Source: an uncultured Pseudomonadota bacterium (GTDB lineage: Bacteria; Pseudomonadota; Gammaproteobacteria; Burkholderiales; Burkholderiaceae_C). Taken from it: DNA of 8,444 bases. The DNA lies in NCBI GenBank assembly GCA_900320815.1, contig ONTY01000035.1, positions 4,797 to 13,240 on the forward strand, in the 5' to 3' direction. The translations under genes and the position numbers were made by a program. Below the pieces are notes generated by a model. That model was not told the DNA's origin. It did not search any database and was given only the letters and a program-made list of their open reading frames with translations. Shown here in pieces: positions 1-8,444 of the stretch (within the stretch, counting starts at the first letter, position 1; every line of letters begins with the position of its first letter).

Positions 1-600
1 CGCGCGTGGGAAAAGCGCCGCGAAACTCTGGCCGATGGCACGCTGGCAGCGCTGCCGCCGCCCCCTTTGCCCAAGGGCCGGAAAAAAACACCCCGCTTTT
101 GCGAACGCATTATTTCCGGCGGACAAACAGGAGCGGACCGTGCGGCGCTGGACTTCGCCATCCGGCTGCGGTATCCGCACGGCGGTTTTGCCCCATGCGG
201 GCGCATGGCAGAAGATGGACGCATTGCGCCGAAATATCAGCTCATTGAATTGACGCAGGGCAGTTATCGCCAGCGCACGCGCCGCAACGTGCTGGAAAGC
301 GAAGGCACGCTGATTGTGAATACCGGCGCGCTGGACGGCGGCACGCTGGCCACGCAGCGATTTGCGCAAAAACTCGCCCGCCCCTGTTTTGTGGCGCAGC
401 TTGACGGCCAAGACATGCCCCACGCCAGCGCCCGCGCACTGGCGTGGCTGCGCGCGCACGCCATCCGCACGCTCAACATCGCCGGCCCGCGCGAGAGCAA
501 ACGCCCCGGCATCTACCGCCTCACCGCCAAACTGCTTGACGCAATGCACGCCGCGCACGGCGCCGCGCGCCGCACACCTGAAAGCGACTGGCTGCCTTAG
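1..600 (+). CDS. putative molybdenum carrier (YpsA/LOG-like Rossmann) protein, 5' end outside window
   Basis: The frame is open from base 1 to a TAG at 598-600. The core begins with IISGGQTGADRAALDFA, the nucleotide-binding glycine-rich start typical of the putative molybdenum-carrier family (related to YpsA/LOG Rossmann proteins). It continues with GGFAPCGRMAEDG, a conserved ERTR-like stretch (QRTRRNVLESEGTLI) and NIAGPRESKRPGIY, all in the expected order. Function is inferred from the family only; the molybdenum role is itself weakly supported. The start is unclear. No ATG lies in frame; a TTG at 67 is possible but has no ribosome binding site. About 35 extra codons precede the core, including a PPPPLPKG linker, so the protein probably continues upstream and may carry another domain. 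It overlaps the end of xerC by two bases, tail to tail. Confidence 0.75.
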   Translation, partial: RAWEKRRETLADGTLAALPPPPLPKGRKKTPRFCERIISGGQTGADRAALDFAIRLRYPHGGFAPCGRMAEDGRIAPKYQLIELTQGSYRQRTRRNVLESEGTLIVNTGALDGGTLATQRFAQKLARPCFVAQLDGQDMPHASARALAWLRAHAIRTLNIAGPRESKRPGIYRLTAKLLDAMHAAHGAARRTPESDWLP

Positions 601-1610
601 CGCGTTTTGCGCCGCGCGCGCGGGTGCGCGCTGTCATAGGTGTGTGCGGCGTGCTGGAAGTCCAGATGCGTGTAAATCTGCGTGGTGCCCACGCTGGCGT
701 GTCCCAGCATCTCCTGCACGCCGCGCAGGTCGCTGCCTGACTGCAGCAGGTGGCTGGCGAAGCTGTGGCGCAGCATGTGCGGGTGCACCGGCTTGGCCAC
801 GCCCGCCAGCAGCCCAAGGCGCCGCAGACGCTTTTGAATGCTGCGCGCGCTCAGGCGCGTGCCAAGCTGCCCGATGAACAGGGCGCGCGCGGCGTCCGCA
901 TCCTTGGGCGGACGTTTGAGGCCGGCGCTGCGCTGCGCCAGCCACGCCTGCAGCGCCTGCACAGCGGGCGGCCCCACGGGCACGGCGCGCCATTTGCTGC
1001 CTTTGCCGCACACCTGCACCATGCTTTCGGCGGCGTCAATCCAGCCGCGTCCAGCCGCTTGCCCTGCGGTGCTGGCGGCGGCATCCAGCCCCACGAGTTC
1101 GCTCACGCGCAGCCCGGCGCCGTAGAGCAGCTCCACCATGAGGGCGTCGCGCGCACGCAACCAAGGCGTGTCATCGTCCTGCTCAAACTCCGCCAGGCGC
1201 ATGGACTCGTCCACGTCCAGCACAGCGGGCAGCGGGTGCTGCTGGCGCGGCGCGCGAACGCCGGCAACGGGGTTCAGCCGCACCTGCTGCTGGCGCCCAA
1301 GCCAGGCGTACAGGCCACGCCAGCCCGAGAGGTTGAGCGCAATGGTGCGCGCGTCCAACCCTTGCACGCGCAGCTGCCGCACCCAGGCGCGCACGTGCTC
1401 GGGCTGCACCTGGAGCAGCGTCAGCTGCTGCGCGGCGGCCAGCGCGCCCAGGCGGCGCAGCGCCAGCGTGTAGAGCGTGCAGGTGCGCGCGGCCAGGCGC
1501 TTTTCATGCTGCACATAGCCCAGGTAGCGGCGCACGAGGGCGGCGTCGGCAGCGCCCATGCCGGGAAAATCCAGTGGCGCTGGCGCAGCGGCAGACACGG
1601 GAGAGTTCAT
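597..1610 (-). CDS. xerC: tyrosine recombinase XerC
   Basis: This 337-residue site-specific recombinase of the Xer family would act with XerD at the chromosomal dif site to resolve dimers. Residues ~24-120 form the SAM-like core-binding domain (LVRRYLGYVQHEKRL). The catalytic domain follows with all expected residues visible: R168 (GAGLRVSEL), K203 (VCGKGSKWR), H278 and R281 (HPHMLRHSFASHLL), H304 (MLGHASVGTTQIY) and nucleophile Y313 (IYTHLD). It is longer than the usual ~300 residues, mainly through an alanine/glycine-rich insertion at ~176-196 and a basic tail. The start is ATG at 1608-1610 with no strong Shine-Dalgarno. It lies 19 bases after the lipoprotein gene, so it may be co-transcribed with it. 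XerC rather than XerD is my reading of overall similarity; a phylogeny would settle it. Confidence 0.88.
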   Translation of the reverse strand: MNSPVSAAAPAPLDFPGMGAADAALVRRYLGYVQHEKRLAARTCTLYTLALRRLGALAAAQQLTLLQVQPEHVRAWVRQLRVQGLDARTIALNLSGWRGLYAWLGRQQQVRLNPVAGVRAPRQQHPLPAVLDVDESMRLAEFEQDDDTPWLRARDALMVELLYGAGLRVSELVGLDAAASTAGQAAGRGWIDAAESMVQVCGKGSKWRAVPVGPPAVQALQAWLAQRSAGLKRPPKDADAARALFIGQLGTRLSARSIQKRLRRLGLLAGVAKPVHPHMLRHSFASHLLQSGSDLRGVQEMLGHASVGTTQIYTHLDFQHAAHTYDSAHPRARRKTR

Positions 1611-1629
1611 CGTTCAGAAAAAAACAGGG

Positions 1630-2415
1630 TCAACGCACCGGCAAAAAGCCCAGAATGGGCGTGAAAGTGAGCGACTGCACATAATTGATGGCGGTGCGGC
1701 GAAAACGTTCGGTCAAATATCCCGCCAATAAATCCAGGCGGCCAATGATTTTGCCAAACTCGCGCTCAAAACTCAGGTTCCGCACCTCGCCGTGCATTTC
1801 ATTGGCCAGCAGCAGCGGCGTGCCGTCTGCCGCTTTGCGTGTATTCAGAATCCACAGCGCAATTTCCATATTGCGCGCGGCGTTGTAGAGGTATTGCGGG
1901 TCCACGCCGTTCAGATAATAAAACTCGTGGCGCCCGTTGTGCGCGGTAATTAATGTATCGGCGCAGGCGGCGATAAAGGCGGCCACGCGGTCGCCTTCAA
2001 AGTCCGGCGCCAGCGCCAGCGACAGCGCGGCTGTGTCGCGCTGCCCGCCCAGCGGCGCCCAGGGTTGGTGCGCATAGATGGAGTGGCGCAGTGCATCCAG
2101 AGCCGCTTCAAGCGAAGCGGCGGTTTTGCGCCACTGCACCGGGTTGCGCCGGTAGAGCTTGCCCGCCAGCAGCATGAGGCTGTCCAGGTTCGCCTCCATC
2201 GTCACTTGCGTGATGCGGTTGGAGTCGCTTTGCAGCCATTCGCCACGCTCAAACTCGGCGCCCTTGACTTCGCCCCACGTCGTGGGCGCCGGAGCGCGCG
2301 TGGCACAGCCGCACAAAGGCACCAAACACAAGGCGGCCATAAAAAATGCCGCCGCAGCGGCTGCTGGTGGCAGCGCATGGGCGACGGCAGGCCGTGTGGC
2401 AAATGGTGGGAGCAC
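1630..2415 (-). CDS. predicted outer-membrane or periplasmic lipoprotein of unknown function
   Basis: This 261-residue protein starts with GTG at 2413-2415. The N-terminus has an arginine followed by a long alanine-rich hydrophobic stretch ending in the lipobox LCGC, with the lipidated cysteine at residue 37. It is therefore probably exported and lipid-anchored. The mature part is mostly helical-looking and soluble, with no domain I can name; LYNAARNMEIALWILNTRK and the C-terminal FTPILGFLPVR are distinctive. The GTG is chosen because a later in-frame ATG (residue 26) would leave a signal too short and uncharged. The start is only 2 bases after the bactofilin stop codon, so the two genes are very likely translated together. 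This suggests a cell-envelope role linked to the bactofilin scaffold, which is inference. Confidence 0.72.
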   Translation of the reverse strand: MLPPFATRPAVAHALPPAAAAAAFFMAALCLVPLCGCATRAPAPTTWGEVKGAEFERGEWLQSDSNRITQVTMEANLDSLMLLAGKLYRRNPVQWRKTAASLEAALDALRHSIYAHQPWAPLGGQRDTAALSLALAPDFEGDRVAAFIAACADTLITAHNGRHEFYYLNGVDPQYLYNAARNMEIALWILNTRKAADGTPLLLANEMHGEVRNLSFEREFGKIIGRLDLLAGYLTERFRRTAINYVQSLTFTPILGFLPVR

Positions 2416-2417
2416 GT

Positions 2418-2936
2418 TTATTTCTTGGCCGCCGCTTGCGGGGCGCCACAGGAGACTTCGCCAGAAAGCTGGCCGCCTTCTTCAATGACGATTTTGCCGT
2501 AGCGGATTTTGCCTGTCACGCGACCGGTCGAGTAAATCATCAATTTCTGGCGCGCAGTCAGCGTGCCGTCAAACACGCCGCGCACCTCGGCAATATCCAC
2601 CTCGGCGTTGCCCTTGAACTCGCCGCGCTCGGAGATTTGCACCAGGCGCGAGTTCATATTCGCTTCCACCATGCCTTCGATGACCAGCGTGTCGCAGTCA
2701 GTAATTTCTACGCCACGCAGTTTGATATTGGCGCCGACGGTGAGTTTGGCGGCACCGGCATCAGAAGCGGGTGCGGGCGCGCTGCCGGGAGCCGCTGGCG
2801 CGGGCATGGGCGCGGGCGCGGGCACAAAAGGCGCGGGCGCCGGTGCGGGGGTTGCGCCGGGTGCAGCACCAGGGGCGCGGGGAGTGGTGGCGGGGGTGTG
2901 GTCGCTGTCGCGTTTGCCGAAGAAGGGTCCAGCCAT
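2418..2936 (-). CDS. bactofilin (polymer-forming cytoskeletal protein)
   Basis: This 172-residue protein has a short N-terminus (MAGPFFGKRDSD), a low-complexity proline/alanine linker at about residues 15-65, and a bactofilin (DUF583) beta-helix domain at about 70-160. The domain shows repeating short beta rungs such as LVIEGMVEANMNSRLVQISE, FKGNAEVDIAEV and GVFDGTLTARQKLMIYSTGRVTGKIRYGKIVIEEGGQLSGEV. Bactofilins polymerise without nucleotide and act as membrane-associated scaffolds for wall enzymes and cell shape. The ATG at 2934-2936 is preferred over longer in-frame starts because AAGGA sits 8 bases upstream and the upstream extension is alanine/arginine-rich noise. It heads a probable operon with the lipoprotein and perhaps xerC. 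Confidence 0.9.
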   Translation of the reverse strand: MAGPFFGKRDSDHTPATTPRAPGAAPGATPAPAPAPFVPAPAPMPAPAAPGSAPAPASDAGAAKLTVGANIKLRGVEITDCDTLVIEGMVEANMNSRLVQISERGEFKGNAEVDIAEVRGVFDGTLTARQKLMIYSTGRVTGKIRYGKIVIEEGGQLSGEVSCGAPQAAAKK

Positions 2937-2944
2937 GTTCGGAT

Positions 2945-2949
2945 TCCTT
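2945..2949 (-). promoter_or_regulatory. ribosome binding site deciding the bactofilin start
   Basis: AAGGA on the minus strand lies 8 bases before the ATG at 2936. It supports the 172-residue protein rather than the longer open frame reaching 3266. Confidence 0.7.
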
Positions 2950-2969
2950 GGGTTGTGATGTGTCGTATC

Positions 2970-3004
2970 AAAAAAAAGAACGCCGCGCATTGCCCGCAGC
3001 GGCG
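2970..3004 (-). terminator. rho-independent terminator after the two-component operon
   Basis: On the minus strand, CGCCGC and GCGGCG (3004-2999 and 2986-2981) form a perfect 6-bp stem with a 12-base loop. This is followed by TTC and a run of eight T (2977-2970). It lies between the sensor kinase stop and the bactofilin start, which places it to end the kinase/regulator transcript and separate it from the bactofilin operon. The loop is somewhat long, so this is likely rather than certain. Confidence 0.6.
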
Positions 3005-3078
3005 CCCGCTGTGCTGCACTGCGGCAGCGGTGCGCCAATCGTAACCGCGCTGCCGCCTGCTGACCGCTGCGCGTGCCC

Positions 3079-4299
3079 TCACTGCGCCGCCAGCGGCAGC
3101 CGCAGCGTGAAGCGTGCCCCACGCCCAGCGTGCGCGCCGCAGCAGGCGCTGCCGCCGTGGCGCTGGGCGATGGAGCGCACCAGCGCCAGCCCCAGCCCCC
3201 AGCCGCCTTCGCGCTCGCTGGCGCCACGGGCGCGGTAGAACGGCTCAAAGATGCGTTCCCTCTCATCTTCGGGCACGCCCAAGCCTTCGTCGTCCACGTG
3301 CAGCACAGCGTGCGCGCCTTCGGCGGCCAGCGTGGCGCGCACCGCGCCGCCGCCGTAGCGCAGCGCGTTGTGCAGCAGGTTGCGGATGGCGCGGCGCAGC
3401 AATTTGTCCACGCCGCGCACGGGCAGCTGCGTCACGCCGCGCGCCAGCACCATCTCCACGCCGCTGCGCGCGCACTCCTCGGCTGTCAGCGCCAGCAGGT
3501 CAAGCTCTTCCACTGTGCCCATGTCCGCCTGCCGCGCGTCCAGCCGGCTGGCCAGCAGGATTTCGTCAATCAGCTGGTCCAGCTCTGCGATGTCGCGCTG
3601 CAACTCGGCGCGGCGTGCATCGTCGGCATTGGGCAGCAGTTCGATGGCCATGCGGATGCGCGCCAGCGGCGAGCGCAGCTCGTGCGAGGCGTTGGCCAAG
3701 AGCGATTTTTGCGACTGCAGCAGCGCCGCCTGCGCCTCCATCAGGCTCTGGATGTGCGCCGCCGCCGCGTTGAAGTGGCGCGCCAGGTCAGCGGCCTCAT
3801 CGTTGCCATCGGCTGGCACGCGCAGCGCCAGCTCGCCTGCGCCCCAGCGTTCTACGGCGCGCTGCAGCGCCTCCAGCCGCCGCGCCATACGGCGCGTGAT
3901 GGGAAACACGCCCACCATCACCGCCAGCGCCGAGAACAGCAGCACCCACCACAGGCTCCAGGGCGGACGCAGCGCCGCCGGAATGCGCGCGGCCAGGCGC
4001 TGCTGCGACTCACTGCGGCGCGGCGCCAGCTGCAGCGTCAACTCTTCGCCGCTGGGCAGCGTGATGAGCACCGCAGGCGACTTGCGATCGCCCAGGCGCA
4101 ACTCACGCACCTGCACCAGGCTCTCGACGCCGCTGGCATCGCTTAGCACCGCTTCGCGCGGCGGACGGCGCTCCCTTTCTTGCACGGCGGTGTGCCAGGC
4201 CAGCCCGACCAGGGCGCTCAATGCCGCCACGCTCAGCGCCACCACCAGCCAGATGCGCCAATACAGCCGCCGAGGAACGAAGCGTCGCCATACTGCCAT
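3079..4299 (-). CDS. two-component sensor histidine kinase (HAMP, HisKA, HATPase)
   Basis: This 406-residue inner-membrane kinase has transmembrane segment 1 at ~15-35, a periplasmic sensor region of about 80 residues, transmembrane segment 2 at ~116-134, then a HAMP linker (ITRRMARRLEALQRAV). The dimerisation/phosphoacceptor helix is SHELRSPLARIRMAIELLP with the phosphorylated histidine at ~206. The ATP-binding domain shows an N box (RNLLHNALRYG), G1 (DEGLGVP), F box (IFEPFYR) and G2 (GWGLGLALV). The architecture is that of RstB/CpxA-like OmpR-partner kinases; the signal is unknown. I chose the ATG at 4297-4299 because AAGGA lies 10 bases upstream. An in-frame TTG at 4321-4323, overlapping the regulator stop as TTGA, would add 8 residues but has no well-spaced ribosome site. 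It follows the regulator gene directly. Confidence 0.92.
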   Translation of the reverse strand: MAVWRRFVPRRLYWRIWLVVALSVAALSALVGLAWHTAVQERERRPPREAVLSDASGVESLVQVRELRLGDRKSPAVLITLPSGEELTLQLAPRRSESQQRLAARIPAALRPPWSLWWVLLFSALAVMVGVFPITRRMARRLEALQRAVERWGAGELALRVPADGNDEAADLARHFNAAAAHIQSLMEAQAALLQSQKSLLANASHELRSPLARIRMAIELLPNADDARRAELQRDIAELDQLIDEILLASRLDARQADMGTVEELDLLALTAEECARSGVEMVLARGVTQLPVRGVDKLLRRAIRNLLHNALRYGGGAVRATLAAEGAHAVLHVDDEGLGVPEDERERIFEPFYRARGASEREGGWGLGLALVRSIAQRHGGSACCGAHAGRGARFTLRLPLAAQ

Positions 4300-4309
4300 A
4301 TCTGATGCA

Positions 4310-4314
4310 TCCTT
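4310..4314 (-). promoter_or_regulatory. ribosome binding site deciding the sensor kinase start
   Basis: AAGGA on the minus strand lies 10 bases before the ATG at 4299. It favours this start over the upstream TTG at 4323. Confidence 0.55.
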
Positions 4315-4319
4315 ACCGT

Positions 4320-5030
4320 TCAATCCTGCTGGCGAGCAAATACATACCCTACGCCTCGTACGGTAACAATGCGCTTGGGATTTTTCACATCGCTCTCAAT
4401 GGCGGCGCGAATGCGCCCGATGTGCACATCAATGGAGCGGTCAAAGGCTTCCAGCTCTCTGCCGCGCACGGCCTCCATGATTTGATCGCGCGTGAGCACG
4501 CGCCCAGCGCGCTCGGCCAGCGCCACCAGCAGGTCAAACTGGTAGCTGGTCAGCTCTGCCTCGCGCCCGCCCACGGTGACGCAGCGCGCGTCGCGGTCAA
4601 TTTCCAGCGCGCCAAAGCGCATCAGCTGCTGCGTCGTTTGCACCGGGCCATACGAGCGGCGCCGCAGCACGGCGCGCACGCGCGCCAGCAACTCGCGCGG
4701 CTCAAAGGGCTTGGGCACGTAGTCGTCCGCGCCCAACTCCAGGCCGATGATGCGGTCCATCGGGTCGCCCTTGGCGGTGAGCATGAGCACTGCCAGCCGC
4801 CCGGTCTCGCCGGGCAGCGCGCGAATGCGCCGGCACACCTCCAGCCCGTCGATGTCGGGCAGCATCAAATCAAGAATGAGCAAATCAAACGCCTGCGTCT
4901 GCACCATCGCCAGCCCGCTGGCGCCGTCGCCCGCGTGCTGCACTTCAAAACCGTTCTCGCGCAAATACTGCGCCACCATTGACGCCAGGCGGGCGTCGTC
5001 TTCAATAAGCAAAAGGCGCGAAGCAGTCAT
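4320..5030 (-). CDS. OmpR-family two-component response regulator
   Basis: This is a DNA-binding transcription factor activated by phosphorylation from the adjacent kinase. The receiver domain (~1-120) has the acidic pocket (LLIEDDARL), the phosphoacceptor aspartate in LILDLMLPDIDG (residue 54 from this ATG), the conserved threonine in MLTAKGD and the lysine in DDYVPKPFEPREL. The winged-helix OmpR/PhoB domain fills the C-terminal half (ELTSYQFDLLVALAERAGRVLTRDQIM, then DVHIGRIRAAIE and IVTVRGVGYVF). Total length, 236 residues, is normal. The ATG at 5028-5030 is preceded by an in-frame GTG at 5033; GGATGG just upstream fits either. The kinase ATG lies 20 bases after its stop, so the pair is one operon. 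The residues resemble RstA-like regulators, but I do not assign a symbol. Confidence 0.93.
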   Translation of the reverse strand: MTASRLLLIEDDARLASMVAQYLRENGFEVQHAGDGASGLAMVQTQAFDLLILDLMLPDIDGLEVCRRIRALPGETGRLAVLMLTAKGDPMDRIIGLELGADDYVPKPFEPRELLARVRAVLRRRSYGPVQTTQQLMRFGALEIDRDARCVTVGGREAELTSYQFDLLVALAERAGRVLTRDQIMEAVRGRELEAFDRSIDVHIGRIRAAIESDVKNPKRIVTVRGVGYVFARQQD

Positions 5031-5085
5031 CACACCATCCAGTCTTCAAAAGAAAAAGAAACACACGCGGCGGATCGCCTGGCGC

Positions 5086-5150
5086 CTACCATACCTTCCA
5101 TATACTCCACATATAAACATTGCATTACCGGCATATCTTGCCGGCATATG
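5086..5150 (-). promoter_or_regulatory. repeat-rich upstream region of the response regulator (possible operator)
   Basis: Two repeat patterns stand out in an AT-richer stretch of otherwise GC-rich DNA. First, CCGGCATAT occurs twice in direct orientation (5128-5136 and 5141-5149); the same stretch also forms a perfect inverted repeat, CCGGCA-TATCT-TGCCGG, at 5128-5144. Second, three contiguous 9-base units run from 5089 to 5115: CCATACCTT, CCATATACT, CCACATATA. OmpR-family regulators commonly bind direct repeats and regulate themselves, so an operator is plausible. There is no T-run after the hairpin, which argues against a terminator. A clear -35/-10 pair is not visible. Confidence 0.35.
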
Positions 5151-5162
5151 AAGCATACCCTA

Positions 5163-5588
5163 TCATAACTCGATAGGAGCGACGCCAGAATCGTGAAACG
5201 CCGCGTAGCGCCGTGCCAGCAATTGCGCCGCCTGCTCCAGCAAAATGCCAGCGTCTGCCGGGCTGATTTTTTTATAAAACACCGCCCTCGCTTTGGCGCT
5301 GCCGCAGCCCGTGCGCAGCAGGGCACGCGCAATATGTCCGCTGGCGGGCACGGGTGCTTTTTCCAGCGCGTTGGGCACGTAGATATTCTTGTGCTCATCA
5401 AAAAACAGCTTCTGCGCCACCGGCACATTTTCATGGTGCAGTTTGAAAGCGCCCAGCCGCCGTGCGGCCACGCGCCAGCCGCGCTGCGGCACCCGCTCCA
5501 CGCACACCGCCAGCGGCGCGCGCTCGGGAAGGCGGGCGGCATTGAAACGGCGAATCAACATGGCTGCCAAGCGTTCAACGGTGTTCAT
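5163..5588 (-). CDS. conserved-looking hypothetical protein, 141 residues
   Basis: I do not recognise this protein. The predicted product is soluble, basic and without a signal peptide or membrane segment. The N-terminal helix (VERLAAMLIRRFNAARLPE) is followed by a mixed region with GAFKLHHENVPVAQKLFFDE and KNIYVPNAL, then a helical C-terminus (ADAGILLEQAAQLLARRY). The ATG at 5586-5588 is chosen because AAGAGGAG sits 11 bases upstream; the open frame continues to 5717 but without that support. GC content and third-position bias match the neighbouring genes, so it looks like a genuine resident gene. It lies upstream of the response regulator on the same strand, with the repeat region between them. 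Confidence 0.6.
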   Translation of the reverse strand: MNTVERLAAMLIRRFNAARLPERAPLAVCVERVPQRGWRVAARRLGAFKLHHENVPVAQKLFFDEHKNIYVPNALEKAPVPASGHIARALLRTGCGSAKARAVFYKKISPADAGILLEQAAQLLARRYAAFHDSGVAPIEL

Positions 5589-5599
5589 GGTGTCTTGTG

Positions 5600-5607
5600 C
5601 TCCTCTT
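5600..5607 (-). promoter_or_regulatory. strong ribosome binding site of the 141-residue protein
   Basis: AAGAGGAG on the minus strand lies 11 bases before the ATG at 5588. It is among the best Shine-Dalgarno matches in the window and is the main reason for the short start. Confidence 0.6.
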
Positions 5608-5756
5608 GGTGAATGTGGGCGTATCTTCCCTGCCGCCCATGTCACGCACACCGCTGCTGTGTAAAGTTTTGCTGCCCCCTGCGCACAAGCTGCAACCGTT
5701 ATAGGTGCCAGTATCAACTTTGCTCCCTTATATTGCGCCGGAAACAGCGTATCAAA

Positions 5757-6686
5757 TCAATGGGTATTGGCCAGCGCCTGCCCCTGGCGCGCACGTGCGC
5801 CGCTGCGCCAGTCCGCCTCAAAGCGCAGCGGCTGCGGCTGGCGCCAGAGCATCACCACCGTCGAGCCCATCAGAAAGCGCCCCATCTCCTGCCCACGCAC
5901 CAGGCGCATGTGCTGCGCGCTGTAGTCCCAGACCTGTGGCGCCGCCTCGCGCGCCGCGCGCATCACGCGCCCCTGCCAGGGCAGCTGCACGCTGCCCACA
6001 ATGGCCGCGCCCACCAGCACCAGCGCCAGCGGGCCATGCGCCGTCTCAAACACGCACACCACGCGCTCATTGCGCGCAAACAGTCCCGGCACCGCCTGCA
6101 CCACACGCGGCGCCACGCTCATCAGCGCACCGGGCACATACACCACGCGCGTCAGCCAGCCATCGCACGGCATATGCACGCGGTGATAGTCGCGCGGACT
6201 CAAATACACCGTCGCAAACTGCCCGCCCTCAAAGCGCCGCGCCAGCGCCGCATCTCCGCCCAGCAGCGCCTGCACGCTGTAGCTGCTGCCCTTGGCCTGC
6301 AGCGCCAGTCCGGCGTGCACAGCGCCGCACTCGCCCGCCGTGCCATCGGCGGGCACCAGCAGCGACGCATCGGCCACAGCCGAGCACACCATAGAGTCGG
6401 GCTCACGGCTGTCGTGGCGCAGCACCACGCCGTCGCCGAACACCTGGTAGTGGCAGCCGTCCTCCCCTACCCCGAAGCGGCACTTGACACCCGAGACTTC
6501 GAGGTCGTAGGAGTAAAGCCAGCGACAAGGTGGCAGCATCACCTGCTCGTCGAGGCGCACCACCATGCCGTCGGCCCCAGGCTGCGCAAACACAGCCATG
6601 CCAGGCAGACGCATGGCCAGCGCCACACTGGCGCCGCCGGTCAGCGTCACTCCGATACCGCCTATCGACAAACGGGCATTCTCCAT
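5757..6686 (-). CDS. psd: chimeric ORF: HprK-like N-terminus joined in frame to phosphatidylserine decarboxylase lacking its N-terminus
   Basis: From about residue 111 the protein is a bacterial phosphatidylserine decarboxylase, the membrane enzyme that makes phosphatidylethanolamine from phosphatidylserine. Visible are VPADGTAGECG (catalytic aspartate at 114), LQAKGSSYSVQALLGGD, YLSPRDYHRVHMPCDG (His168 and His171), PGLFARNERVV and MGSTVVML, where self-cleavage before Ser275 gives the pyruvoyl group (the family usually has LGST). All catalytic residues are present, but the ~85-90 N-terminal residues of a normal enzyme are missing. Residues 1 to ~110 are instead unrelated and Bacteroidetes-like (see the separate entry). 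Codon use and GC also change there. The natural psd gene of the GC-rich organism must have started elsewhere. Whether this joined frame exists in any cell is doubtful. Confidence 0.8.
   Translation of the reverse strand: MENARLSIGGIGVTLTGGASVALAMRLPGMAVFAQPGADGMVVRLDEQVMLPPCRWLYSYDLEVSGVKCRFGVGEDGCHYQVFGDGVVLRHDSREPDSMVCSAVADASLLVPADGTAGECGAVHAGLALQAKGSSYSVQALLGGDAALARRFEGGQFATVYLSPRDYHRVHMPCDGWLTRVVYVPGALMSVAPRVVQAVPGLFARNERVVCVFETAHGPLALVLVGAAIVGSVQLPWQGRVMRAAREAAPQVWDYSAQHMRLVRGQEMGRFLMGSTVVMLWRQPQPLRFEADWRSGARARQGQALANTH
6357..6686 (-). pseudogene. 5' fragment of an HPr-kinase-like gene (Bacteroidetes type)
   Basis: The first ~110 residues of the fused ORF begin MENARLSIGGIGVTLTGG and contain LDEQVMLPPCRWLYSYDLE, GVKCRFGVGEDGCHYQVFGDG and LRHDSREPDSMVCS. 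From memory this matches the N-terminal region of HPr(Ser)-kinase-like proteins in Bacteroidetes, where such a segment precedes a helical region and then a P-loop (GESGTGKST-like). The P-loop and kinase part are absent because the frame switches to decarboxylase at about 6355. Its ATG is 3 bases after the pqqD-like stop codon, matching the usual PqqD-HprK pairing. The family call is moderately sure; the foreign character relative to the rest of the frame is clearer. Confidence 0.55.
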
Positions 6687-6689
6687 TGT

Positions 6690-6959
6690 TCAGTCTATTA
6701 TCAAGTGCTCGTGGCGCATGCTTGCCACCAGCGCCTCGGCGTCGGCCAGCGCTGTGGCCTCATCCACCTCGTACTCATCGGTCAGCACGCGCGCCACGTC
6801 GGCCACGGCAAACTCCTTGCCTTTCAGCTGCTCATACACAAGCATGGCACTCTCGTTGAGGGCCACCACCTTGGTCATATCGGCCTCGCCGTCGGCCTGC
6901 ATGATGACGATGTTCTCGCCAGCCACCGTGCGCACTTTCTTACGCTCGTCAAATCTCAT
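6690..6959 (-). CDS. PqqD-family protein (peptide-binding chaperone type)
   Basis: This 89-residue protein has the length and pattern of PqqD-like domains: an N-terminal basic beta region (MRFDERKKVRTVAGENIVIM), VVALNESAMLVYEQLKGKEF in the middle (the characteristic LNESA..V/L signature), VADVARVLTDEYEVDEATALADAEAL, and a short helical end. PqqD domains bind precursor peptides and present them to modifying enzymes in RiPP-type pathways. In Bacteroidetes stand-alone PqqD genes often sit beside HPr-kinase-like genes, as here (3-base gap to the next ATG, likely translationally coupled). No precursor peptide or radical-SAM enzyme is visible, so the pathway cannot be named. The start is ATG at 6957-6959 with no Shine-Dalgarno, which is normal for Bacteroidetes. 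Confidence 0.78.
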   Translation of the reverse strand: MRFDERKKVRTVAGENIVIMQADGEADMTKVVALNESAMLVYEQLKGKEFAVADVARVLTDEYEVDEATALADAEALVASMRHEHLIID

Positions 6960-7052
6960 GGTTCTGTTCTGTTATATAATGTCATAACGCAATAACTTCC
7001 GTTTTATTATATGACAAACACCACTCAATAATCAATAACTTGTAACCAATAA
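6960..7052. other. AT-rich intergenic region between pqqD-like gene and insertion sequence
   Basis: The base composition drops sharply to strongly AT-rich. CAATAACTT appears twice in direct orientation (6990-6998 and 7033-7041). It presumably holds the promoter of the pqqD-like gene on the minus strand, but I see no convincing TTTG/TAnnTTTG pair there. Confidence 0.5.
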
Positions 7053-7068
7053 CACTAGTGTCTCTTAA
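7053..7068 (+). repeat. left terminal inverted repeat plus possible target duplication
   Basis: CACTAGTGTCTCTTAA, a perfect 16-base match to the reverse complement of the right end. The first 8 bases are palindromic and may be duplicated target rather than element. Confidence 0.8.
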
Positions 7069-7108
7069 TTATTGTTAAATTAATTTATAATATTCTTATG
7101 CATAGTGT

Positions 7109-7139
7109 TTTGAGCAACAAAACTTGTGTCCGACTTTTG
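7109..7139 (+). promoter_or_regulatory. candidate Bacteroidetes-type transposase promoter
   Basis: TTTG (7109-7112), a 19-base spacer and GACTTTTG (7132-7139) match the Bacteroidetes pattern TTTG-N19-21-TAnnTTTG with a single mismatch at the first base of the -7 box. Transcription would start about 35 bases before the transposase ATG and include the hairpin at 7155-7175. Sequence match only. Confidence 0.35.
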
Positions 7140-7154
7140 AAATGCGTATATTAT

Positions 7155-7175
7155 GGTCTGAATCGAAATCAGACC
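7155..7175 (+). promoter_or_regulatory. hairpin immediately upstream of the transposase start codon
   Basis: GGTCTGA and TCAGACC form a perfect 7-bp stem with a 7-base loop, ending 4 bases before the ATG at 7180. In several IS families a structure at this place hides translation initiation in transcripts entering from outside. The structure is visible; the role is inferred. Confidence 0.5.
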
Positions 7176-7179
7176 GGTT

Positions 7180-8337
7180 ATGCATACAGGAAGTTATGTT
7201 TTTGCTCAAATCACAATGTACTTGCCACAACGGCAATTCAGGAGGATTGTCGCGAAGTACCCGGACAGGACCCATGGATGGGGTTTCTCCCATTGGAACC
7301 ACCTGCTTGTGCTCATGTTCGGGCAACTCATAGGCTGCAGAAGCCTCAGGGAACTTACAGATATAACAACTGCTCATGCTAAAAGGTCTTTCTATCTCGG
7401 ATTTGGTGCGGCAACCGTTGTCAGGAACACCCTCTCGAAAGCCAATATGCTCCGTGAGCCTCGAATCTTCGAGGAATTCGCTTTCTATATGGTGTCTCTT
7501 GCTCAGCGAAGACGAATCACCAAGGAGTTTGAACTTCACGGACGCTTCTACGCTGTCGATTCCACCACAATCGACCTCTGCATGTCCGTCTTTCGTTGGG
7601 CACGCTTCCGCAGTACCAAGTCCGGCATCAAAGTCCACACTCAGATTGACATCGCAACAGAGATACCTGTATTCTATCGCATCACCAATGCCAACGTGCA
7701 TGACACCAAATTCATGGACAGTATTGGGTATGAATCCAATGCTGTATACATTTTTGACCGGGGATATTTCGACCTCGCAAGACTTTCCGCCATACATCTC
7801 TGTGGGGCTTTCTTCGTCATCCGCGAGAAACGGCATCCAAATTTCGAGATTGTCGACGGAGACGAGGCTGTCAATGGAGAAGACAACGTCTTGCTTGACC
7901 AGACAATTCGTTTCACCGGTAACAGAAATAGAGGGAATTACCCAACTGAAATCAGAAGAATTGTCTACTACGCTTCCGACCTTGGGCAGTCTTTCGTCTA
8001 CTACACCAACAACTTCTATCTCGCAGGCAAGGACATTGCCCTGCTTTACCGCTACCGCTGGCAGGTGGAACTTTTCTTCAAATGGATCAAGCAGCATCTC
8101 CAAGTCAAGTCTTTCTGGGGTGATACCGAGAATGCTGTCAGGATACAGATTCACGTCGCCATCATCACATACTGCCTCATTGCAATTATCGAGCACGACC
8201 TCCAACTTGGCAGGCCTGTGGCTCAGGTACTGCGCATACTCGGAAGCTCCTTGTTGGTCAAAGACGACCTGCCGGAACTCTTCGGACGAGGAACTGATGA
8301 TGGAACTGATGACGGTCAACTTGAAATTGAATTTTAA
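7180..8337 (+). CDS. IS4-family DDE transposase (Bacteroidetes type)
   Basis: This 385-residue cut-and-paste transposase has an N-terminal domain (YVFAQITMYLPQRQFRRIV, then SHWNHLLVLMFGQLIGCRSL) typical of the DUF4372-type domain before an IS4 DDE core. Catalytic acids are D127 (YAVDSTTIDL), D193 (YIFDRGYFD) and E297. The IS4 signature Y-2-R-3-E-6-K is perfect: Y290, R293, E297, K304 in YRYRWQVELFFKWIK. The reading frame is intact from ATG at 7180 to TAA at 8335-8337, so the element looks recently active. The acidic tail has a small duplication, GTDD GTDD, from a 12-base tandem repeat. Codon use and GC differ clearly from the left part of the window and fit Bacteroidetes. Confidence 0.93.
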   Translation: MHTGSYVFAQITMYLPQRQFRRIVAKYPDRTHGWGFSHWNHLLVLMFGQLIGCRSLRELTDITTAHAKRSFYLGFGAATVVRNTLSKANMLREPRIFEEFAFYMVSLAQRRRITKEFELHGRFYAVDSTTIDLCMSVFRWARFRSTKSGIKVHTQIDIATEIPVFYRITNANVHDTKFMDSIGYESNAVYIFDRGYFDLARLSAIHLCGAFFVIREKRHPNFEIVDGDEAVNGEDNVLLDQTIRFTGNRNRGNYPTEIRRIVYYASDLGQSFVYYTNNFYLAGKDIALLYRYRWQVELFFKWIKQHLQVKSFWGDTENAVRIQIHVAIITYCLIAIIEHDLQLGRPVAQVLRILGSSLLVKDDLPELFGRGTDDGTDDGQLEIEF

Positions 8338-8349
8338 TTGTTAAATTTT

Positions 8350-8365
8350 TTAAGAGACACTAGTG
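8350..8365 (-). repeat. right terminal inverted repeat plus possible target duplication
   Basis: TTAAGAGACACTAGTG, the exact reverse complement of 7053-7068. It follows the transposase stop by 12 bases. Confidence 0.8.
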
Positions 8366-8431: not shown

Positions 8432-8444
8432 CGCAATATACTAA

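Follow-up and report, generated by a model that had tools for sequence, protein, structure and literature searches.

An apparent Bacteroidales–betaproteobacterial fusion gene at a draft-genome contig end is probably a metagenome-assembly error

An apparent gene in a draft betaproteobacterial genome is, on the evidence of sequence comparison, the start of a Bacteroidales gene joined to most of an unrelated betaproteobacterial decarboxylase gene. With a probability that we put at about 0.78, the junction is a metagenome-assembly error, in which the contig path crossed between genomes at a short word common to both genes, and the fusion is most likely not natural. The predicted fusion protein would lack both the decarboxylase N terminus and the Bacteroidales P-loop. 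The original prediction, made from the DNA alone, had proposed an inter-phylum junction within one frame; to this our analysis adds the exact breakpoint, a shared six-residue word (ADASLL) and a likely second break at an insertion sequence (IS).

Results

The window (the whole stretch of DNA analysed, 8,444 bp) is the right-hand part (positions 4797-13240) of the 13,240-bp contig C215 in G000, a draft genome of 2.10 Mb in 339 contigs (completeness 81.39%, contamination 0.5). Window base 8444 is the last base of this contig, and the foreign 2.1 kb forms the contig's terminal part. The chimeric frame (5757-6686, minus strand) is open over 309 codons, encoding 309 amino acids. Elsewhere in the window, the longest bactofilin-domain frame (2418-3266) overlaps a histidine kinase frame (3079-4323), and the true bactofilin start probably lies further inside its longest frame.

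The downstream part of the frame (codons 105-309 plus stop; 5757-6374, minus strand) had been read, from about residue 111 onwards, as a betaproteobacterial phosphatidylserine decarboxylase, and the profile and protein matches agree. Residues 106-306 match PS_Dcarbxylase (Pfam PF02666; E 1.9e-48, 165.2 bits against a cut-off of 22) and residues 109-307 match TIGR00163 (190.9 bits against a curated cut-off of 111.75), with both matches beginning late in the profile, at position 20 of 198 (the first 19 positions unmatched) and position 37 of 243 (the first 36 unmatched), respectively. The frame retains GST at residues 274-276, which we take to be the decarboxylase self-cleavage site. A protein search also recovered an intact parent of 301 amino acids, P0002, which from its residue 97 (window A105) to its end has 204 of 205 residues the same as the window, and the first 96 residues of which sit where other decarboxylases carry their N-terminal part, giving the usual kind of start. 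This half is betaproteobacterial, with a parent that is probably an Ottowia.

When the whole frame was used as the query, 7,993 of the 7,999 scored candidates passed, and among the best 120 of these 7,993 only the window's own protein, P0001, covered the entire query (87% for the next best). The same full-length 309-residue protein in another genome had been named as an observation that would speak against an artefact; it was found neither among those best 120 decarboxylase matches nor among the 43 matches to the Bacteroidales half described below. P0002 was matched in 30 of the 41 genomes searched, including G000 with its truncated copy, which is the one decarboxylase match in that genome. 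The native decarboxylase N terminus was not found in G000, where the search gave a single match (E 0.09); its absence is what would be expected if the contig left its true path at the junction. Gene order around the decarboxylase was uninformative, as no other window protein queried by tblastn was matched in the six same-genus regions (14-19 kb). In one same-genus genome the decarboxylase is split over two overlapping matches (G003:C1:1341880-1342709), which looks like a frameshift or sequencing error.

The upstream part of the frame (6357-6686, minus strand) corresponds to the first 110 codons of a 285-amino-acid Bacteroidales P-loop protein, differing at 1 of 110 residues from P0121 and at 2 from the protein of locus L011, which lies in the metagenome-assembled genome (MAG) RUG377. 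Searched alone, residues 1-112 returned 43 proteins: P0001 and 42 others, mostly of 283-288 amino acids and with identities from 62% to 99%. PF27840 was assigned to 41 of the 42 relatives, no domain to the remaining one and PF02666 to none, leaving P0001 as the only one of the 43 proteins with a decarboxylase domain; the match of residues 1-110 to decarboxylases that would have undone the two-source claim was thus not seen. P0121 and its aligned relatives run past residue 110 into a P-loop (GESGTGKST in P0121, after the breakpoint), which the window frame lacks.

The match extends to DNA and to the neighbouring gene. Window positions 6357-7053 match L011 over 697 bp at 99.57% identity (3 mismatches, no gaps), and the intact 285-amino-acid gene in RUG377 runs on beyond the breakpoint. 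Seven loci were related at the DNA level, every record being titled Bacteroidales or Bacteroidetes bacterium: besides L011, the same stretch is matched at 91.1% by L012 and at 90.5% by L013, and L014 to L017 match portions of it at 72-78%. These loci come from RUG and RGIG isolates, with sheep rectum and roe deer reticulum named in two of the seven titles. A PqqD-like gene (6690-6959, minus strand; PF05402, E 1.7e-12) belongs to the same Bacteroidales locus and occupies the same position in L011, where its product is 98.9% identical over 89 residues. In L011 (4907-7622), an opposite-strand CutC gene is followed by the PqqD-like gene, the P-loop protein gene and lastly a gene whose parts resemble S24 peptidase and VanZ.

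The original prediction had described the N-terminal part as a Bacteroidetes HprK-like protein, of which the taxonomic half held and the functional label proved weak. The intact Bacteroidales gene matched ScmC (E 1.1e-7, residues 110-187) at 31.5 bits, below the curated cut-off of 125, and HprK_rel_A (E 0.0028, residues 82-187) at 16.8 bits, below the cut-off of 200, with both matches falling mostly past the breakpoint. P0121 had no Pfam match at E 0.01 (weak ones appeared only at E up to 5), no solved structure related to the Bacteroidales protein was found at E up to 1, and no paper in the collection searched named HprK, PqqD and Bacteroidetes together. The parent would accordingly be described as a P-loop protein that appears only weakly related to ScmC and HprK.

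With both intact parents in hand (P0002 as protein; P0121 and L011 as protein and DNA), the claim that the frame has two sources was upheld. A single source, with the N-terminal part a native but unusual decarboxylase extension, would account for the continuity of the frame, yet it merits next to no credence: near-identity to a protein of another family in the residue 1-112 search, the usual decarboxylase start in the P0002 alignment and the DNA match to RUG377 led us to reject it. Bin-wide contamination was likewise rejected as the source of the Bacteroidales DNA, because a search of G000 in which 40 of 70 first-look candidates were scored did not recover the remainder of the 12.9-kb Bacteroidales locus; apart from the 697-bp piece it gave two matches, one of 166 bp at 72% and one of 42 bp at 90%. 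The Bacteroidales gene was present in G000 alone among the 60 genomes searched (G000 and 59 relatives at genus, family and order level).

Base composition had also been proposed to separate the two sides. GC content is indeed high to the left of the junction (0.665 in window positions 1-6356) and lower in the intergenic stretch (6960-7052; 0.29), the insertion element (0.462) and the final 79 bp (0.177). The coding part on the Bacteroidales side, however, is GC-rich as well (0.658 for 6357-6686 and 0.600 for 6690-6959), so that GC content does not mark the junction.

The window leaves the L011 sequence at 6356/6357, within the interval 6354-6362 that had been predicted. L011 reads ...GCCGATGCGTCGCTGCTG and then CGCTATGTG, whereas the window has the same 18 bases followed by GTGCCCGCC. 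The Bacteroidales gene thus matches the window through GCCGATGCGTCGCTGCTG (6357-6374, minus strand), which encodes ADASLL, and P0002 has the same six residues; the preceding residue is Leu in P0002 and Val in the Bacteroidales protein. Short microhomology had been suggested at this point, and a shared stretch is present, although it is longer than the proposed CTGCTGGTG, running over the whole of GCCGATGCGTCGCTGCTG. The two parents probably share 18-20 identical bases at the join, the identity on the betaproteobacterial side being deduced from the P0002 protein: with TG as the last two bases of the P0002 Leu codon, and no difference in the other codons, the shared stretch would reach 20 bases (6357-6376). 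If the join had no bearing on the codons of the decarboxylase side, all six would agree with those of the window with a probability of about 0.006 (from codon usage in six window frames), so that DNA identity at ADASLL is to be expected only on the view that the shared word gave rise to the join.

A stretch of 18-20 bases is as long as a small k-mer used in assembly. By arithmetic on uniform composition, 8.8 shared 20-base words are expected between genomes of 2.1 Mb and 2.3 Mb (both strands), which would leave nothing unusual about such a crossing in a mixed sample. When 118,098 positions from seven loci on the Ottowia side (six regions from relatives, and C215 to the left) were compared with both strands of L011 alone, four exact 16-base words were common to the two, 5.7 times the uniform rate; speaking against such a crossing, this small sample held no common word of 18 or 20 bases.

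These features suggest a mechanism in which the assembler path crosses from one genome into the other at a short common word, the 18-20 bases of the join being present in the betaproteobacterial DNA too; the crossing may have occurred in a de Bruijn graph at small k, with the path then passing through a repeated IS into another Bacteroidales locus, where the contig stops. PMC8171044 describes chimeric nodes in the graph as sequence that two similar species have in common. The assembly settings given in PMC6785717 and PMC5830445 are those of RUG genomes and say nothing of the way in which the window's genome was put together; RUG377 does not occur in the main text of the latter. Against misassembly, the reading frame continues through the join, which a genuine fusion would require, but the shared word is in the same frame in both genes.

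The main rival to misassembly is an amplification chimera. The join would then be physical and pre-date assembly, most likely through a template switch in PCR, library preparation or multiple-displacement amplification, aided by the shared word. Its position inside six codons for the same residues in both parents suits such a switch, which a shared word can also help. A rare chimeric molecule would, however, become part of a contig only if it were locally dominant, and a template switch does not account for the likely second break, which at a repeat such as the IS is an everyday difficulty of assembly. Displacement amplification was used in a cattle-gut study mentioning Ottowia (PMC12918008), but that study is not known to have any link to this genome. 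We consider this explanation unlikely, if well ahead of those that invoke a natural fusion. The original prediction had named an assembly or amplification chimera as the most likely origin; recovery of the intact parents supports an artefact, more probably of assembly than of amplification.

Misassembly, our preferred explanation, is further consistent with what lies to the right of the PqqD-like gene, where a complete 1,313-bp IS4-family element (7053-8365, plus strand) carries a transposase gene (7180-8337; NF033592, 234.3 bits against a cut-off of 115) between 16-bp perfect terminal inverted repeats. The window copy is flanked by AACCAATAA and ACAAAACAA, with no 9-bp target duplication. Eight loci with related copies were inspected; both ends could be read in six (L029 to L033 and L036), and L034 and L037, each lacking one exact end motif, were left out of the count. 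An exact 9-bp duplication flanked five of the six complete copies, L033 being the exception. Across 190 genomes of the RUG377 family, 67 had some match to the element (many under 60 bp; two first-look candidates scored per genome) and three had near-identical copies (0, 1 and 0 mismatches). In L029, L030 and L031 the element is identical or one base off, the insertion point differs each time and a 9-bp duplication is always present; this pattern suggests that the element has recently moved between species.

At the position of the window's IS, L011 carries none and runs on into a different sequence, and the IS with its flank matched none of the three genomes that hold L011, L012 and L013, so that the source strain must differ there from RUG377 and its two nearest relatives. 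The 79-bp flank between the IS and the contig end (8366-8444) had no match in L011, and 65 of its 79 bp match the end of contig C8 of another genome, G155, at 94%; the G155 relative of P0121 (42% identical) sits on a different contig, C20. The flank is thus likely to derive from a different Bacteroidales locus, and the IS is likely a second place, 0.7 kb from the junction, where the assembly path switched locus. This second break is likely rather than certain, as L033 also lacks an exact duplication, and a deletion adjoining the IS is possible instead. The flank also holds a TTTTTCGTATATTTGCA stretch, which resembles the Bacteroidetes promoter motif, and the surroundings of which recur as short matches in several Bacteroidales genomes.

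The open frame and a mobile element 0.7 kb away are also what might be cited for a real horizontal transfer, in which a Bacteroidales piece with its IS was inserted into a betaproteobacterial decarboxylase gene. We regard this as very unlikely. The 697-bp match to a Bacteroidales MAG demands a very recent event, the IS lies away from the junction, has no duplication and has an outer flank that seems to belong to a different locus, and the contig ends on the right without returning to betaproteobacterial DNA. The single decarboxylase match of G000 would, moreover, have lost its N terminus while an intact, near-identical gene is on record. Still slightly less probable is the specific version of a very recent inter-phylum transfer with in-frame fusion via the short common sequence, the Bacteroidales start replacing the decarboxylase N terminus. 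If true, this would be a rare case of genes from two phyla fused within a central, and important, lipid pathway. An IS-driven junction was rejected for the 6356/6357 breakpoint, from which the IS starts 0.7 kb away.

Discussion

The terminal position of the foreign 2.1 kb on its contig, the IS copy without a target duplication and the two intact parents together favour misassembly. A clean in-frame fusion with a Pfam match above its cut-off can likely arise at one short shared word, and fused genes that lie close to a contig end in a draft genome call for comparison with intact parents.

Like phosphatidylserine decarboxylases (TIGR00163/PF02666), residues 106-309 score above the curated cut-offs and retain GST, but the domain is not full-length in comparison with the archaetidylserine/phosphatidylserine decarboxylases of TIGR00163, as unrelated sequence replaces the N-terminal part. 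In contrast with HPr kinase-like proteins, the frame has no P-loop, and even the intact parent falls below the curated cut-offs for HprK-related families. The window shares gene order and near-identical DNA with the PqqD and P-loop gene pair of RUG377, but has just codons 1-110 of the second gene, the P-loop part being cut off. The insertion element has the transposase and terminal repeats of the IS4 family, with the target duplication absent from the window copy. The window also resembles inter-species chimeric metagenome contigs: non-overlapping parts of the window match different species, the join falls at a word that both genes encode, and the foreign part runs to the contig end and into a repeated IS, the shared word here being identical in DNA to the Bacteroidales parent and the same in all six residues in P0002.
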